From Bacillota bacterium (GTDB taxonomy: Bacteria; Bacillota; SHA-98; UBA4971), in NCBI GenBank assembly GCA_012842395.1, contig DUSX01000002.1, forward strand, positions 248,001 through 312,000: a DNA stretch of 64,000 nt, given 5' to 3'. This document shows positions 5,628-62,739 of the stretch, one piece after another; position 1 is the first letter of the stretch; every line of letters begins with the position of its first letter. The notes below the pieces were generated by a model. That model did no database searches. It worked only from the letters and a program-made list of their open reading frames with translations, and was not told where the DNA came from. The position numbers were made by a program, and so were the translations under genes.

Positions 5628-6234
5628 TTCAGGCGCCTCCCTTTTGTCTCCGTCTCGTCCCTTCGAACTTCCTTCTAACTAAACGTCCTCTCAAGCCTCC
5701 CTGGGGACGGCTCGCGCAGCACAGGGCATGGTCAACACTGTGTCATCGGCGGTTTCGGACGGGCAAGCAAACCGGCGCTGAGGTGACCCTTGGGCCCGGA
5801 GAGGGCCCTGGACGTACCCGCCGTAGGACACACCTGCCGCAGGCGCCGCAGGCTCAGTTAACCATAAATGGAAAGGTGTTCATGTTTCCGGACACATTTT
5901 ACGACATCGACTTGATGCGTGTCAACGGATGTCGCGCACCATGGCGGTTTATGTCGACTCCCGGCCCGGACGTCCCACGCTTCGGCAAGGTTCGACCGCT
6001 AGACAGATCGCCATGGGTTCGTGCCGGGCTTGAGCGCGCAACCCTGTTCGGGCTTGCCGGCTTTGCCCTCGGGGGATGGCGCGCCTGTGCCGCACCTCGT
6101 TCGAATTCCGCGGGCGAGATAGCTGTTGGCACGGTGGCCGGCGACTCCTTCCGGGAGCCGCGAGCCGGAACCCGGAATCCGGGAACCGAGAGCGTCGTTG
6201 AGCGTTGTTGATGCGCCCCTAAGGAGGTTTCCAC
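5628..6234. other. Non-coding region upstream of codY, holding repeat copy G
   Basis: No convincing gene is present here. The first 80 bases should hold the codY promoter on the minus strand, but I found no good -35/-10 pair. A less GC-rich patch at about 5855-5910 (TTAACCATAAATGG and neighbours) may be a promoter region. The second half is a copy of the dispersed repeat (5999-6223). Open frames of 100-140 codons exist on both strands but have no ribosome site and no recognisable product. Confidence 0.6.
5999..6223 (+). repeat. Dispersed palindromic repeat, copy G
   Basis: The left end, CTAGACAGATCGCCATGGGTT, matches the left ends of copies A, B and E. The interior has GGCGCGCC and the core CTCGTTCGAATTC that is shared with copy B (about 62618). 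A further hairpin, CCCGGAATCCGGG, lies near 6176. The right boundary, CGCCCCTAAG at about 6213-6223, is approximate. It sits between codY and the GH18 gene. Confidence 0.65.
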
Positions 6235-18706: not shown

Positions 18707-19199
18707 GGTACAAATGAGTGTCGCCTCGCCGATATCCCAACAATTGTTCTTTCATTTCCAGGGCCCGTTGTGTTATCCTCGTTGCGAAGCAGATCGCCAT
18801 AAGCTTGCGCCACCTTTCGGCGCGCGGGTTCCGCCGAAGGCCGCTGGCCTCGGTCTCCCGGGCGGTACGCCCGCCGTGCGCGTCGTCCGAGCTCGGCGCG
18901 CCCTCTGCGAGATTCCAGGCGCGCCGCCGAACAAGAGCACCGGGGAGTACCGGCGACTCCAGCGCCCTCGGGGAAGGAGACGAGAGCTTATGGAGCCAGA
19001 CTCAACGCTGCCGACCACGCGGGTTTTTTATTTTGGGGCCACGGCCCGGCAGGACAACGTCGTTTTTCGGCGTATCCTTATGCAACACCCATATGCATCG
19101 AGGCAGCGCGCGACCGGGGCGAAGGGGCGTGACGGTACGAAGCCCCGTGTCGGCTTCCCGATGTCTAGCATGAGGGGTACGGGAGGTTCGTGACGAACG
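18707..19199. other. Non-coding region between argH and aspartokinase, holding repeat copy H
   Basis: There is no supported gene. AACAATTGTT (a small palindrome near 18738) and a possible weak promoter (TATCCT at 18775-18780) precede repeat copy H. A T-rich stretch near 19023-19033 follows a weak GC stem and might act as a terminator, but the stem is too short to be sure. Confidence 0.5.
18785..19004 (-). repeat. Dispersed palindromic repeat, copy H
   Basis: The left part, ATCGCCATAAGCTTGCGCC then TTTCGGCG, aligns with copy C (GTCGCCACAAGTTTGCGCC then TTTTCAGCG). The centre has TCCGAGCTCGGCGCGCC, and the right part, GCGCCCTCGGGGAAGGAGACG, matches the CCTCAAGAAAAGAGGCG arm of copies C and D. 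It is in the same orientation as C and D, opposite to A, B, E and G. Confidence 0.65.
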
Positions 19200-25387: not shown

Positions 25388-25693
25388 ACGAGCTTTCGCA
25401 CGACAGGGCTCGATGCACAGGGCGGGCCCGGAGACCGAACTTGCCAAGCGCGGCGCCATGGGTTTTCATCTCCTTTCTTGACGGCGCCAGGGTTACCGGT
25501 GGTTGGACGACGGGGCGGGAAGAATCTCGCTATCTCGCGCGCCGAATTCGAACGGGGCGCGCCGTGAGCGTGCCGTTCCTCCCCGGATGGTGGCACCGGC
25601 AACCCTGGGCGGCGGCCCCGGGCCGGAAAGTGGCGCGAACTTCTGGTGGTGTGCTTGGTTCGCCCGGGCCCGCTCGTTTCCAAGGTGGTGATA
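25388..25693. other. Intra-operon gap occupied by repeat copy A
   Basis: The 306-base gap between the binding-protein and first permease genes is filled mainly by repeat copy A (25444-25658). Hairpins formed by the repeat in the mRNA could end or slow transcription or protect the upstream message, which would keep the binding protein more abundant than the permeases. No gene is present. Confidence 0.6.
25444..25658 (+). repeat. Dispersed palindromic repeat, copy A
   Basis: The left end is CCAAGCGCGGCGCCATGGGTT, followed by TCTCCTTTCTTGACGGCG. The core GCGCGCCGAATTCGAAC is palindromic. The arms AGGGTTACCGGT (about 25490) and ACCGGCAACCCTGG (about 25597) pair with each other. The right end is GGCGCGAACTTCTGGTGGTGTGCTTGG. 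It closely matches copy B at 62530-62739. Confidence 0.85.
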
Positions 25694-41680: not shown

Positions 41681-41696
41681 CACACGCTTCGGCAAA

Positions 41697-41903
41697 ATAG
41701 GTCGCCACAAGTTTGCGCCGCTTTTCAGCGTGCAGACCTTGCCTGGGGCTGTCGGACTCGCCCTTCAGGGCGAGGCGCTTGCAGTGCGCCTGGTTCGGAT
41801 TTGGCGCGCAGGCTGGCCAAATTCTCGACCCCCCATTTGTGCAAGCACTGGCAACCCCGGTGCCCTCAAGAAAAGAGGCGAAAGCTTGTGGCGTCATACC
41901 TAG
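41697..41903 (-). repeat. Dispersed palindromic repeat, copy C
   Basis: It runs from ATAGGTCGCCACAAG to GTGGCGTCATACCTAG. The core, CTTGCAGTGCGCCTGGTTC then TTTGGCGCGCAGGCTGGCC, matches copy B, and GTGCAAGCACTGGCAACCCC matches GTGCAAGCACCGGCAACCCT of copy B. The CCTCAAGAAAAGAGGCG arm marks the orientation as opposite to A and B. It separates the SIS gene from the convergent glycosyltransferase gene. Confidence 0.85.
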
Positions 41904-41921: not shown

Positions 41922-43145
41922 TCACGAACCCAGGCGGGAGTGTCGTTCTGGTCGGGCGATATGGTCGGACACCGGCGCACGCGCGGATGCGCGCGCCAGG
42001 ACGCGCTTGTACACTTCGAGAGTCTGGCGAGCCATCGCGTCCGCGGTGAGAGAGGCCTCGAAGCGGGTGCGCCCCAGTGCGCCCATTTCCCGCCTTTTCT
42101 CGGGGTCGCTGGCGAGGGTGAGCAGTGCTGAGGCCAGGGCCGCATTGTCTCCCGGTGGCACGAGCAGTCCGGTCTCACCGTGGACCACCGCTTCAGGGAT
42201 GCCCCCGACGGGCGTAGCCACCACGGGCTTCGCCCTGGCCATAGCCTCCAAAATGGCCATTCCAAGCGCCTCCCGGAATGAAGGGAGGGCGAAGATGTCC
42301 ATCGCTTCCAAGGCGTCGCTGGGGTCGTCGAGGGCACCGGTGAATACGACCCTGTCACTGATGCCGAGGCTGCTGGCAAGGCGCTCGAGCTTCGGCCTCA
42401 TCGTCCCATCCCCGACTATCAGCAGGCGAGCACCAGGGCACCGTTGGGTGATGCGGGCGAACGCCGATATGAGATGTGACGTGCCTTTCCCGCGCTCAAG
42501 GCGCGACACGGTTCCGATGACAACCGCGTCTTGTTGAAAGCCAAGGCGTTCTCGGAGCTGGCGCCCCCGGGAAGACGCGGCGGGCATCGGCGGGGCAACG
42601 CCGTTTCGGATCACCGTAAGACGATCCTTTCTGAACCCATACCTCTGTGCCGTTCGCCGCTCCGCCTCGGAGACGCAGATGACCTCCTCTACGATACGGT
42701 TAGCGAACAGGCCGCTTATGACGTAGCTTGCCACGTCGGGATACCCGTGGATCGTGAAGACGATCGGCACTTTTGGGGCCGCGAGGTGTGCGGCGACGGC
42801 GCATTCCATGCCACCGTGGACGTGAATGAGGCTTGGCCGGAACTCGGTCACAAGCTCTCGGAGAGCTGTGCTATGCGCCCTCAGCTCGCGGCGCGTGCCC
42901 AAACCCAGGCTCAGGGGTTGTACGGTGCGGTAAGGCACCCCGAGGTCTCGGAAGAGCCGGAGCGCGTCTCCGTGCGGTGCAATGAGACATGGGACCACCT
43001 CGTGATGAAGCGCGCTGACCAGGGTGAGCAGGTGTTTTTCCGTCCCTCCGAGGTTTGCGAACGGAAGCTCATAGAGCACGGCAAGTTTACCCTGTGTTTC
43101 GATGATGCCTCCCTCCAAATCGTCCATACCGCAGGCTTGAGTCAA
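41922..43145 (-). CDS. Glycosyltransferase family 4 (GT-B) protein
   Basis: The 407-residue enzyme has an N-terminal acceptor domain (LPFANLGGTEKHLLTLVSAL, then LIHVHGGMECAVAAHL) and a C-terminal nucleotide-sugar domain: VIRNGVAPP, IGTVSRLERGKGTSHLISAFA, LLIVGDGTMRPKLE and the EX7E motif in FREALGMAILEAMARAKPVVATPVGGIPEAV. It transfers a sugar from a nucleotide donor, most likely to the lipid-linked repeat unit of the exopolysaccharide made by this locus; donor and acceptor are unknown. The start is uncertain: TTG 43145 or ATG 43127. Its upstream region carries part of a dispersed repeat, so it may have been rearranged into place. Confidence 0.88.
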   Translation of the reverse strand: MTQACGMDDLEGGIIETQGKLAVLYELPFANLGGTEKHLLTLVSALHHEVVPCLIAPHGDALRLFRDLGVPYRTVQPLSLGLGTRRELRAHSTALRELVTEFRPSLIHVHGGMECAVAAHLAAPKVPIVFTIHGYPDVASYVISGLFANRIVEEVICVSEAERRTAQRYGFRKDRLTVIRNGVAPPMPAASSRGRQLRERLGFQQDAVVIGTVSRLERGKGTSHLISAFARITQRCPGARLLIVGDGTMRPKLERLASSLGISDRVVFTGALDDPSDALEAMDIFALPSFREALGMAILEAMARAKPVVATPVGGIPEAVVHGETGLLVPPGDNAALASALLTLASDPEKRREMGALGRTRFEASLTADAMARQTLEVYKRVLARASARAPVSDHIARPERHSRLGS

Positions 43146-43149
43146 GCGA

Positions 43150-43248
43150 GGCGCGCCACAGGCAGGCCGCCCCGAAGGGCGAGGTCGACAGCCTCAGGCG
43201 AGACCCCCGCGCCGAAAGGTTAGCGCGAACCTTTGGCGATTCACCTAG
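43150..43248 (+). repeat. Dispersed repeat, partial copy J
   Basis: Only the right portion is clear: ACCCCCGCGCCGAAAGG then TAGCGCGAACCTTTGGCGATTCACCTAG. This matches the right end of copy E (CGCCCCCGTACCGAAAGG, GCAGCGCGAACTCCCGGCG, TATACCTAG). The left part is lost or overlaps the glycosyltransferase 5' end. Confidence 0.6.
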
Positions 43249-49967: not shown

Positions 49968-50188
49968 CTGAGCATGGCGCAACGAGTTCTCGTCTCTCAT
50001 CTTGAGGGCGCGATGGTCACCGGTCCTTGGCACGACGGGACGCTCGGAATTCGGCCGGCTTACGCGCCAGATCCCGACGAGGCGCGCAGCGAGCACGCCG
50101 TCCCCAGAGGGTAAGGCCGATAGTATTATTAGGCAGGACCCCCGCCCCCGTACCGAAAGGCAGCGCGAACTCCCGGCGGTATACCTAG
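49968..50188 (+). repeat. Dispersed palindromic repeat, copy E
   Basis: It begins CTGAGCATGGCGCAAC, then TCGTCTCTCATCTTGAGGGCG. The core is CTCGGAATTCGGCCGG, and it ends GCAGCGCGAACTCC then GGCGGTATACCTAG. The last bases contain the stop codon of the minus-strand cpsB gene (CTA at 50185-50187). It separates the Wzi-like gene from cpsB. Confidence 0.75.
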
Positions 50189-51006
50189 CCAAACAGGAAC
50201 CACTTTCTCCGCACGAACTTTTCCGGGCTTTCTAGCTGCACCGTCTCCGCGCGAACGACCGCACGTGGGATGTCGCGCACGGCACGCAAGGCGGCCTCGC
50301 GTCCCACGAGCCTGGACGCGGCCGCAAATGCTAGGTCAAGCCTGCAGGGCCGATCCTCGGGTGAGTGTCCATCGCTTGCTATGAGATGGGCAAGCCCGTG
50401 TCTAAGAAGGGTTTCCGCCGCCTGCCGGACGGACCTGCCGAACGCGCCGGTGAGGCTTCCGGCGTTCACTTGGCCCATGGCGCCTGCCCGCACCAGCCGG
50501 TACATACGGTTCGGGTCGGTCGCGACCTCGGAGCACCGTTCGGGGTGAGCGATCACCGGGACATAGCCCGCGCTGGATAGGTCGAACACGGCTTTCTCGG
50601 CGTACGTGGGAATCTGCTGAAACGGCAGCTCAACGAGGACGTACTTTCCAGCATCCCCTATGGTCAGTGCGTCGCCGTGTCTTAGCAGTTCCAGGACCCG
50701 AGGGTGCATCGCGATCTCCATCCCCGGCAAGACCTTCACGGACAAGCCCGAGGACTCGAACACGGCGTTGAGAGCGGCAACCCTGCTTCGGATGGTGCTG
50801 GCCACACCCTGCCACCGGCGCCCCGCGAAATCGGCATGAGGCGTTGCCACCATGAGGACGCTGCCGCGCTCCTGCGCTGCCTTTGCCATGACGATGGCCT
50901 CATTCAGGTTCCTGGCACCGTCGTCCACCCCTGGGAGGATGTGTGTATGGATGTCGACGGCTCCCGGAACAGCGCTGTCACGGCTCAACCGCATCTCACC
51001 CGCCAC
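50185..51006 (-). CDS. cpsB: PHP-type protein-tyrosine phosphatase CpsB/YwqE
   Basis: This 273-residue PHP-fold metallophosphatase has VDIHTHILPGVDDGA (metal-binding HxH), VATPHADFAG, GMEIAMHP, VIAHPERC and HLIASDGHSP, all metal ligands of the CpsB/YwqE family. It dephosphorylates the tyrosine cluster of the partner kinase encoded by the upstream overlapping gene (CpsD), cycling polysaccharide synthesis on and off. It overlaps cpsD by 11 bases, so the pair is translated together. The stop codon lies in the terminal CTAG of repeat copy E, and the family C-terminus (KFVRRKWFLFG) looks complete. Confidence 0.93.
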   Translation of the reverse strand: MAGEMRLSRDSAVPGAVDIHTHILPGVDDGARNLNEAIVMAKAAQERGSVLMVATPHADFAGRRWQGVASTIRSRVAALNAVFESSGLSVKVLPGMEIAMHPRVLELLRHGDALTIGDAGKYVLVELPFQQIPTYAEKAVFDLSSAGYVPVIAHPERCSEVATDPNRMYRLVRAGAMGQVNAGSLTGAFGRSVRQAAETLLRHGLAHLIASDGHSPEDRPCRLDLAFAAASRLVGREAALRAVRDIPRAVVRAETVQLESPEKFVRRKWFLFG

Positions 51007-51812: not shown

Positions 51813-52042
51813 CCAAGCAGGACACAACAAGTTGGCGTTGCCTCTCAGTTGCGTGCGTCCCGCCCCAGATCATTGCCCTCACCCTACGGGGACGGAGCGT
51901 TCGCGGCGCCCAGCTCGAATCCGGACGGTGCTCAGGCCATGTTCGGCCCATGCTCGGCCGCCGCGCCGTGCCTGCGCCGACAACCCTTGCGACCCTCAAG
52001 AAAAGAGACGAATACCGCGCCTCCCTATTGCGTCACGCTTAG
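51813..52042 (-). repeat. Dispersed palindromic repeat, copy D
   Basis: It begins CCAAGCAGGACACAAC, then AAGTTGGCGTTGC. The centre is CAGCTCGAATCCGGAC, and CCTCAAGAAAAGAGACGAA matches copy C. It ends ATTGCGTCACGCTTAG. The terminal CTTAG (52038-52042) contains the TAA stop of the minus-strand wzz gene. It lies between wzz and cpsD. Confidence 0.75.
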
Positions 52043-53496
52043 GACGCTGCGGGTTCGCCCCCTCCCAATGGCTCGCCTTTCGGATGCTTGCGACGGAACC
52101 TCCGCATATCGGGGACAACCCCGAGCACGGGAAGCTCAAGGAGCCGTTCGACCTCCTCCTGGGTTTTGAATGACGTGTCCACGTACTCCATGACGAACGC
52201 GACACCTACTGCGACGAAGAGCCCGAGAAACGCGGCGATAGCCGTGTTGAGCAGCTTCCTCGGCTTGATGGGCTTCTCGGGAACCACCGCGCTATCTATC
52301 ACGTAGACGTCCGACACTTTCATGGCCTCTGTGATCCGCATTTCCTCGTACTTCGTGCGCAGCATCACGTAGATTTCTTCATCTACACGCTGCTCTCTCA
52401 TGAGGCGTGCGACGTCCATTTCTTTCTCCGGGATCGCCGCCAGTTTCGCCTCGGCGTCAAGAAGCATTCCGCGGAGCGCGGCTTGTTTCGCTTCGAGCCC
52501 CACGATGCGAGATTCGTTCTCCACTAGTTGCGTGCGCAGTGCCTGATAAATGGGGTTGAGGGAGCTAGTCTGCGAGCCGACCACGTTCTCCACTTCTTGG
52601 GCGAGTTTGGCCTTCACATCAGCGATCTGTGCCTTCAGGCTGATGACAGCCGGGTGGTTATCGGTGTATCGCTCGCGTGCTCCTGCTAGCTCGGTCTCAA
52701 GGTCCGACAGCCGGATCTTGTATTGCTGCACGAGCGGGTTATTCACAAGTGTCGTCGACGTGACGAGCGTCGGATCCGCCGACCTAAGGTTGCGCTCTAT
52801 CTCCTGCCTCTCCGCCATGGCCGCGTTGAGCTCTACCTGGGCCGCGGCGAGCTCTTTCTCGATCTCGGCGATCTTGTCTATCTGAGCTTTCGTTTCTTCT
52901 GTCGGCTCCACAACCATGCTGGACTTCTTGTATTGAAGGAGGGCATCCTCGGCCTTCCGGAGCGCTTGTTCGGAGATGGAAAGCTGCTGCGCGACAAACT
53001 CCCTTGCCGCACGCGCCGATTCCTGGTTCATCTTCTGGCTGTGTTCCCTGAAGACCTCGATCAGGGCATTCAGAAACGCGGCCGACCTCTCAGCATTGTC
53101 TGATTCCACGGAGAGCTTTGCCACGTTCGTTCCCTGGACTTGCTGGACCGATAGGCTCTTCTGCCACAGGGCGACGTCCTCGGGGGACACGGGAGTGTAC
53201 CAGCCCAACCGCGTTAGGACTGACTCCACAATGGTTCGGCTCTTAAGGAATTCCATGTAGTTTCTGATGTCATTTCCCGAAGTGCCCATCATCTCCTCCA
53301 TGAACGGCATCGTGCCCACCGCGCTATCAGTTCTCACCATTATCGTCGCAGTGGCTTGATAGATCTCGGTCATCCCGGCGCTGACCACGTACGCGGTCAG
53401 CGCACTGGTGAGAACAAGCGCAAGTATGAGCCATTTCCTGCGGGCGAGCACCCTCAGGTATTCGAGGAGATCAACTTCCTGCTCAAGCTGATCCAT
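52039..53496 (-). CDS. Wzz/GNVR-domain polysaccharide co-polymerase (CpsC-like), first copy
   Basis: The 485-residue protein has an N-terminal Wzz domain (DLLEYLRVLARRKWLILALVLTSALTAYVV, first helix), a long coiled-coil ectodomain (about 150-400; REFVAQQLSISEQALRKAEDALLQYKK, QIDKIAEIEKELAAAQVELNAAMAERQEI) with a GNVR-type segment (EKEMDVARLMREQRVDEEIYVMLRTKYEE), then PIKPRKLLNTAIAAFLGLFVAVGVAFVMEY (second helix) and a cytoplasmic tail of about 45 residues. The tail (TSFKTQEEVERLLELPVLGVVPDM) is the part that activates CpsD-type kinases. It is followed by cpsD after repeat copy D. Its stop codon is within the repeat end. Confidence 0.92.
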   Translation of the reverse strand: MDQLEQEVDLLEYLRVLARRKWLILALVLTSALTAYVVSAGMTEIYQATATIMVRTDSAVGTMPFMEEMMGTSGNDIRNYMEFLKSRTIVESVLTRLGWYTPVSPEDVALWQKSLSVQQVQGTNVAKLSVESDNAERSAAFLNALIEVFREHSQKMNQESARAAREFVAQQLSISEQALRKAEDALLQYKKSSMVVEPTEETKAQIDKIAEIEKELAAAQVELNAAMAERQEIERNLRSADPTLVTSTTLVNNPLVQQYKIRLSDLETELAGARERYTDNHPAVISLKAQIADVKAKLAQEVENVVGSQTSSLNPIYQALRTQLVENESRIVGLEAKQAALRGMLLDAEAKLAAIPEKEMDVARLMREQRVDEEIYVMLRTKYEEMRITEAMKVSDVYVIDSAVVPEKPIKPRKLLNTAIAAFLGLFVAVGVAFVMEYVDTSFKTQEEVERLLELPVLGVVPDMRRFRRKHPKGEPLGGGEPAAS

Positions 53497-61011: not shown

Positions 61012-61121
61012 CTCTTATCAAGAGCGGCGGAGGGACTGGCCCGATGAAGCCCGGCAACCGGCGGCGGACTCGCCTGCACGGTGCCAATTCCTGCAGAACT
61101 TTCCGTTCTGGGAGATGAGAG
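61012..61121 (+). ncRNA. SAM-I (S-box) riboswitch
   Basis: The leader carries the S-box core in order: CTCTTATCAAGAGCGG, GGAGGGACTGGCCCGATGAA, GCCCGGCAACCGG and the closing GATGAGAG. P1 pairs CTCTTATC (61012-61019) with GATGAGAG (61114-61121), eight pairs with one wobble. GCGGCGG...CGCCTGC and CAGAACTTTCCGTTCTG form internal stems. High S-adenosylmethionine stabilises P1 and favours the terminator that follows, so metK is turned off when its product is abundant. Confidence 0.97.
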
Positions 61122-61159: not shown

Positions 61160-61284
61160 GTGCGTCTCGGGTGCAGCTGCGCGGTGCGATCGAGCGGCGC
61201 GACTCGCCGGGACAATGCTGGGCCGATTGAGACGGTTGGGCTTAGGTGACAGGTTCCGAAATACAGAGCAGGAGGGGTGCTGAC

Positions 61285-62508
61285 ATGGGAGAAACGACAG
61301 GGAGATGCTCAACAAAGGCGAGGAGGCTTGTTACGTCAGAGTCAGTGACCGAAGGTCACCCGGACAAGCTCTGCGACAAGATCGCCGACTCCGTGCTCGA
61401 TGCTATCCTGAAGGAGGACGCTAATGCCCGCGTGGCGTGCGAGGTTGCCGCGACGACGGGCGTGGTCTTCGTCATTGGTGAGATCACCACGTCTTGCTAC
61501 GTGGAGATCCCAGAGATCGTCCGCAATACAGTGCGGGAGATCGGGTACACCAGGGCCAAGTACGGATTTGACGCTGATACCTGCGGCGTTATCACGTCCA
61601 TCCACGAGCAGTCGGAGGACATTGCCATGGGAGTGAACCGGTCGCTCGAGGTTAGACAGCTCGAAGCGGCCGGGGTCGCAAACGGTTTCGAACATTTGGG
61701 CGCTGGCGACCAGGGCTTGATGTACGGGTTTGCCACACGTGAGACCCCGGAACTGATGCCCATGCCGATAATGCTTGCGCACAAGCTGGCCCGGCGGCTC
61801 GCGGAGATCCGTAAGCAGGAGATCGTGGACTATCTGCGCCCGGACGGGAAGACGCAGGTCACCGTGGAGTATGACGGCGACACGCCTGTGAGGGTGGACG
61901 CCGTGGTGATCTCCGCCCAGCACCACCCGGAGGTCGACTATGAGACACTCAGGCGCGACATTATCGAAAAGGTAATTCGCCACGTGATCCCGCCGTCTCT
62001 CCTCGATGAGCGCACGAGGTTCTTGATCAACAACACAGGCCGGTTCGTCGTAGGCGGCCCCCACGGCGACTCGGGGCTCACGGGCCGAAAGATCATCGTG
62101 GACACGTACGGAGGTGCGGCACGCCACGGTGGCGGATCGTTTTCGGGCAAAGACCCGACCAAGGTTGACAGGTCGGCGTCCTACGCTTTGAGGTGGGTAG
62201 CGAAGAACCTCGTCGCTGCGGGCCTTGCGGACAAATGCGAGGTGCAGGCGTCTTACGTCATCGGGTCCTCGCGTCCCGTTTCGGTCGGCGTTGAGACCTT
62301 CGGCACGGGTAAGCTGGATGACGACGATATTCTGGCGCTCGTTCGCAAGCATTTCGACTTGCGTCCGGCCGCCATCATTGAGAGGCTGGACCTTCGGAGG
62401 CCGATTTACAGCCCTGTGGCGGCGTACGGCCATTTCGGAAGGACCGATCTGGACCTCCCATGGGAGAGGCTGGACAAGGTCGACGACCTGAAAGCCGATG
62501 CCTTCTAG
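61285..62508 (+). CDS. metK: S-adenosylmethionine synthetase
   Basis: MetK makes S-adenosylmethionine from methionine and ATP. The 407-residue protein has [25 protein letters not shown] near the start, [21 protein letters not shown] (signature 1, about 125-145), [42 protein letters not shown] (signature 2, about 265-305) and the C-terminal GHFGR. AGGAGGGG precedes ATG 61285; the frame is open from 61246 but that part has no site. It is controlled by the SAM-I riboswitch upstream. Confidence 0.97.
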
Positions 62509-62529: not shown

Positions 62530-62739
62530 CTAAGTACGGCGCCATAGGTCTTCGTCTCCTTTCTTGACGGCGGTAGGGTTGCCGGCCACGCCCTCCAGGC
62601 ACGGCGCGCTTGCGGCGCGCCTCGTTCGAATTCGGCGCGCAAGCCTGCCGGACTCTCCACGCCCCGTCGTGCAAGCACCGGCAACCCTGGGCAGGATCCC
62701 TCGGCCGGAAGTAGCGCGGACTCTTGGCAACATACTTAG
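62530..62739 (+). repeat. Dispersed palindromic repeat, copy B
   Basis: The ends form an imperfect inverted repeat: CTAAGTACGGCGCC (62530-62543) and GGCAACATACTTAG (62726-62739). The interior has TCGTCTCCTTTCTTGACGG, AGGGTTGCCGG pairing with CCGGCAACCCT, and a core of GCGCGCCTCGTTCGAATTC followed by GGCGCGC. This is the most complete copy and the best reference for the family. Confidence 0.88.

Follow-up and report, generated by a model that had tools for sequence, protein, structure and literature searches.

The RUP element of Streptococcus pneumoniae is a short, intergenic, high-copy MITE related to IS630-Spn1 that has IS630-like TIRs and a TA target (PMC2229807, PMC3049150). Duplication of TA is the hallmark of IS630/Tc1-mariner-type chemistry and accompanies insertion of both IS630 of Shigella and ISY100 (PMC2170065), and a preference of IS630 for TA within CTAG was described by Tenzen and Ohtsubo (1991), as cited in PMC2170065. 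CTAG also can be targeted by MITEPsy1, a 100-bp MITE of Pseudomonas syringae (PMC3189936). The Correia/NEMIS elements of Neisseria are intergenic MITEs that fold back strongly and may contain an internal functional motif (PMC2229807), and inversion of these elements has been reported, as cited in PMC10969869. ERIC and the enterobacterial RU elements are palindromic intergenic repeats that resemble MITEs (PMC2759123).

A family of near-palindromic repeats was noted by a first-pass annotation in a 64,000-bp stretch of DNA (the window) from a Bacillota bacterium, the draft assembly of which consists of 61 contigs (G000). The repeats are very probably 211-bp non-autonomous MITEs of the IS630/Tc1-mariner type that are moved in trans and duplicate the TA of CTAG. 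The annotation had offered a miniature inverted-repeat element as one of two readings, and this reading is upheld by empty sites, by duplication of TA within CTAG, by ends that resemble those of IS630 and by a gradation in copy age. The family belongs to a known kind of element; the family itself, which was absent from the literature searched, and some of its habits appear to be undescribed.

Census, ends and copies in the window

The family profile was built from 11 copies in the same orientation and comprises 211 positions. When the genome was searched with copy A, the best 40 of 169 candidate matches were 73-85% identical to it (A itself excepted), and alignment of 30 matches revealed sharp common ends and unrelated flanks. 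The profile identified 83 non-redundant places, including 25 full-length copies, in an 864-kb sample of G000 that comprised the window and stretches of three contigs chosen for their top matches and was thus slightly biased. This density of one per 10.4 kb extrapolates to roughly 250-300 copies genome-wide. The family constitutes roughly 2% of the genome and occupies many intergenic spacers. Identity to the consensus reaches 97% in the best copies.

The ends read CTAAGT...ACTTAG, the left being CTAAGTATGTCGCCAAAAGTTCGCGC and the right, reversed, CTAAGTATGGCGCCATAAGTTTTCG. A 21-bp end pattern with ≤3 mismatches occurred at 112 places in the genome compared to none for the reversed control; among the end pairs listed, 25 were spaced by 206-221 bp and the commonest spacing was exactly 211. 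The empty control shows that the matches do not arise by chance. At 211 bp, non-coding, in high copy number and with the TIR CTAAGTATG[T/G]CGCCA[A/T]AAGTT, the family fits the description of bacterial MITEs (50-500 bp). Pairs of ends spaced by 1153 bp (C9:65186-66318) or 1839 bp (C4:5304-7122) were considered as candidate autonomous elements and rejected, as host genes lie between ends of separate elements. The copies in the window are as follows.

Copy A, 25444..25658, minus strand: full length, canonical arm/core order; ends at 25444 (CCAAGC) and 25658 (GCTTGG)
Copy B, 62530..62739, minus strand: full length; arms on minus, core (about 62590-62675) on plus, i.e., flipped core
Copy C, 41693..41903, plus strand: full length; absent from G004
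Copy D, 51813..52042, plus strand: full length, old
Copy E, 49968..50188, minus strand: full length
Copy G, 5999..6223 (right end putative), plus strand: degenerate; profile match restricted to 6008-6124 (profile positions 10-127)
Copy H, 18785..19005, plus strand: full length, degenerate
Copy I, 43140..43248, minus strand: partial; profile positions 1-109

Thus, of the seven copies originally regarded as clear, six (A through E, and H) span the full length, whereas G was matched by the profile in its first half alone. The left boundary of copy C moved from 41697 to 41693. Among up to three degenerate copies proposed, I was recovered as a partial element, but the 11-copy profile did not recover F or J as such in the window. 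Copies lie on both strands, in the window and in the wider sample, as had been noted; the spacing given as about 7 kb holds locally in the window, but the average in the sampled genome is about 10 kb. The scan that the annotation had suggested for the genome and its relatives also located the full element in most of the genus.

Insertion into CTAG with duplication of TA

The inserted state reads C-TA[AGT...ACT]TA-G, and empty orthologous sites in congeners are an intact CTAG. The site of the young copy at C18:115668-115878 is empty in syntenic positions of G005 (..GGGGACTAGGGC..) and G002 (..GGATGGACTAGAGC..). At the locus of copy D, CGCTAG lacks an element in G002, G003 and G005, and the element in G000 ends in ..GCTTAG. 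A nested case provides a third junction: the family copy at C34:393375-393685 is split by a different 112-bp MITE, CTAAGTGAGG...CCTCCACTTAG, such that the consensus GCAACC-CTAG-CGCC became ...CC-C-TA[AGTGAGG...CCTCCACT]TA-G-CGCC with duplication of TA. The comparison of filled and empty sites that had been advocated in the annotation therefore was informative at two orthologous loci and in one nested insertion of a related element, and establishes that the target is CTAG with TA duplicated, as is characteristic of IS630-mobilized MITEs. These natural empty sites provide evidence for the target at the nucleotide level. The spacer orthologous to that of copy C measures 102 bp in G004 compared to 103 bp in G000 when the element is subtracted; congener spacers for copies C, E and I are too diverged for a clean junction to be read.

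In G003 and G004, the site at C18:115668 holds another CTAAGTGAGGG MITE inside the very same CTAG. Two different MITEs inserted independently in the same gene-end CTAG in sister species (L159, the G000 locus, versus L206, L207, L209 and L210), and the CTAG at this stop codon is a natural insertion hotspot.

Palindromes of the REP/BIME type, which are mobilized by a Y1 (RAYT) transposase, also are intergenic and present in high copy number. However, they comprise 20-40 nt, possess a GTAG/CGTC tag and produce no target duplication, whereas the 211-bp elements described here have long TIRs with CTAAGT ends that lack this tag, and duplicate TA at CTAG. That the family is of this type is extremely improbable.

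Placement between genes and on stop codons

Placement was assessed against gene predictions made by simple codon-usage calls. Overlap with predicted genes was limited to 10 of 105 copies compared to 86% of random positions, which substantiates the between-gene location recognized at the outset. Some elements abut genes precisely: at 25 of 147 typed ends, a reading frame with ≥150 open codons stops at the position of the element's TAA, compared to 9 and 8 for the remaining two frames (P = 0.0003). At about a sixth of typed ends, therefore, the TAG of the upstream frame has been converted to the TAA of the element. The right end of copy D provides the TAA stop codon (52039-52041) of the gene at 52039-53496 on the minus strand, and that of copy E gives the gene at 50185-51006 on the same strand its stop codon, which now reads TAG. 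Among CTAG sites outside gene interiors, 23% are on stop codons. Target choice combined with removal of harmful insertions is a sufficient explanation for this placement, and conversion of a CTAG at a stop codon to the element's TAA offers a mobile element a simple and harmless route onto gene ends. CTAG is scarce in the 864-kb sample of G000, with 846 occurrences observed versus about 3000 predicted by base composition (about 3.5-fold rarer), and this rarity alone steers such elements toward spacers and stop codons.

Flipping and swapping of the core

Inside the arms, the inverted repeat AGGGTTGCCGGTG/CACCGGCAACCCT encloses a 112-bp core which on either strand folds as two hairpins, GGCGCGC-TTGCG-GCGCGCC and GAATTCGGC-loop-GCCGAATTC. 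The whole element is a predicted T-shaped foldback with a calculated folding energy of about -115 kcal/mol that is strong on both strands. In a subfamily with the left stem AGGCTATCGG(C/T), pairing with CACCGGCAACCC is incomplete, yet several copies are well preserved (e.g., L021, L039 and L044).

When the orientations of arms and core were scored separately in 73 typed copies, 67 showed the canonical order, whereas in six the core runs opposite to the arms. The latter include copy B of the window and the nearly pristine copy at C34:89652-89859. The flip boundaries coincide with the AGGGTTGCCGGTG inverted repeat. The suspicion that the palindromic center had flipped between copies A and B thus proved correct, with A canonical and the core of B inverted relative to its own arms, and the event is recurrent. 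Loop types TTAAG, CAGGCTTG and TATCTCGCG are found in flipped copies and each is present also in unflipped copies; inspection of these types suggests that there likely were at least three separate flips or conversions.

A second MITE family possesses ends CTAAGTGAGGGTGC and several internal versions, most with a GTTGCCGGTG stem.

Second MITE family: C34:17945-18140, 229060-229198 and 393417-393528 in G000; L206, 586-784 and 3440-3565; L207, 3483-3607

The CTAAGTGAGGGTGC arms carry the core of the principal family (core I; C34:364293-364484 and C29 near 100318), a homologous and likewise T-shaped core II, or a short core. The shared stem is a natural breakpoint for both flips and swaps, which may result from hairpin-templated switching or short-homology recombination. 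Inversion by a dedicated site-specific invertase, instead of rearrangement driven by homology or hairpins, would agree with breakpoints that fall within the same 12-13 bp inverted repeat. Nevertheless, only about 8% of copies are flipped and this stem is also where cores are exchanged between families, as short-homology exchange predicts, and the action of an invertase is very improbable. The recurrent flips and swaps make the remodeling of MITEs by inverted-repeat exchange directly testable.

Conservation of the core and decay of pairing

The full element is present in most of the genus. The core extends to 15 of the 17 genomes from the class; in the other genera that were examined, it is flanked by different outer arms. 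Core identity between species, genera and families is 80-94%, whereas the outer arms diverge. No match was detected in 44 genomes searched elsewhere in the phylum, in plasmid and phage searches, or in viral contigs with the exact 24-bp core pattern; a copy is present in one further named MAG, Bacillota Yes71-24.

This conservation, together with strong folding of both strands, might indicate that the repeats are structured RNAs, the second reading in the first-pass annotation, or cis-regulatory elements that function within transcripts of neighboring genes. Base pairs were counted directly and separately for copies of different age (young, mid and old). In 59 cores, standard pairs occupy 88% of the designated pair cells compared to 34-48% when the pairing is slid. 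Two-sided pair changes across the class number 51 cells versus 18 in shuffles, an excess that is not proof of selection as relatedness and hairpin-templated correction could yield the same result. Within G000, however, broken and compensated pairs match those in shuffles at all ages (8 versus 7.9, 19 versus 19.7 and 65 versus 59.4), such that individual genomic copies do not preserve pairs beyond this expectation. The folding and covariance analysis that had been proposed therefore yielded a strong fold and a class-wide excess, but not preservation within the genome. Furthermore, copy orientation between genes transcribed in the same direction is random (35 versus 38), presence varies between congeners at orthologous sites with TA duplication, and RNAalifold retained four pairs in the class-wide alignment and thus almost no consensus. 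The sole match in an Rfam search of the window was a SAM riboswitch (RF00162, 94 bits; 61012-61121, plus strand) upstream of a 420-aa ORF (61246-62508); the repeats matched no family. As pairs decay as in shuffles and orientation is random, there is no sign of retained RNA function in individual copies, and the RNA or regulatory reading is very improbable. Conservation of the core would belong to the lineage that is still moving.

A different interpretation of the core supplements, and does not contradict, the MITE explanation. The 112 bp may themselves form a functional, conserved module that is carried by and exchanged among replaceable MITE arms; a structural or binding site that assists transposition is one example. 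Conservation across the class while arms differ, the occurrence of either core I or T-shaped core II in the second-family arms, and variation in young copies that is lower at paired (3.1%) than at unpaired (10.2%) core positions are consistent with such a role. By contrast, neither a cognate protein nor an activity is known, hairpin-templated correction can both conserve palindromes and generate paired changes when selection is absent, and second-family elements with a short, different core exist. The proposal is therefore tentative. More speculative is a specific version in which the T-shaped core would be selected for its foldback in the mobile lineage, for example as a host-factor site or a cruciform that assists transposition, and, as a transferable module, would have been swapped class-wide among MITEs with different IS630-specific arms; flip and flop, as at the ends of AAV, would then record hairpin intermediates.

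Candidate partner transposase

Searches of the G000 draft with IS630 profiles disclosed no intact IS630 transposase, but a fragment and weak matches. The best match is to a fragment of 71 positions, located in a frame of 97 codons that contains TAG. Repeated IS copies often are missing from draft assemblies, and it is possible that the cognate transposase is missing from this draft or recently became extinct. The result weakens the claim of current mobility, but does not affect the mechanism of insertion.

Relics in the same host lineage are informative. The congeners G004 and G005 possess IS630 derivatives with internal deletions that measure about 390 and 514 bp, respectively, and are bounded by CTAAGT...ACTTAG. 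Beyond CTAAGT, the left ends of these relics agree with the right end of the MITE at 13 of 18 positions (P about 5e-5 each), and thus are homologous to the TIRs, whereas their right ends match weakly. G015 contains a nearly complete 1143-bp element of the IS630 type (L127, 1321-2463) with CTAAGT...ACTTAG ends and one in-frame TGA in the transposase gene. An intact IS630 element with AGTATGKCGCCAWAAGTT ends in long-read sequence would identify the partner.

Overall, the observations are accommodated by a scheme in which an IS630-family transposase would recognize the CTAAGT-proximal TIRs in trans and paste the element into the TA of CTAG. Selection presumably would purge genic insertions, leaving survivors between genes or on TAG stop codons preceded by C, which the element's TAA replaces. 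Copies then would decay neutrally, with the T-shaped foldback maintained solely in the mobile lineage. The stem is an inverted repeat common to related MITE families at which recombination or template switching may occasionally flip or swap the core.

Comparison with known systems

The G000 family is set apart from RUP by size, composition and host: RUP is 107 bp and AT-rich, whereas the family is 211 bp and GC-rich, inserts in CTAG and has a T-shaped core that flips and swaps. RUP also has a related IS, whereas no intact partner was found in the G000 draft. IS630 and ISY100 differ in being autonomous, transposase-encoding elements of about 1.1 kb. ERIC and the enterobacterial RU elements likewise duplicate TA, but have other sequences and other hosts; to our knowledge, neither a partner IS nor core exchange is known for them. 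MITEPsy1, which possibly is related to IS5, duplicates all four bases of CTAG, whereas the G000 family duplicates TA alone. Correia/NEMIS elements are of other sequence and 105-155 bp in length, and in the G000 family it is the inner core that inverts relative to its own arms. The notable features of the G000 MITE family are an unusually modular, flip-prone core and landing on stop codons.
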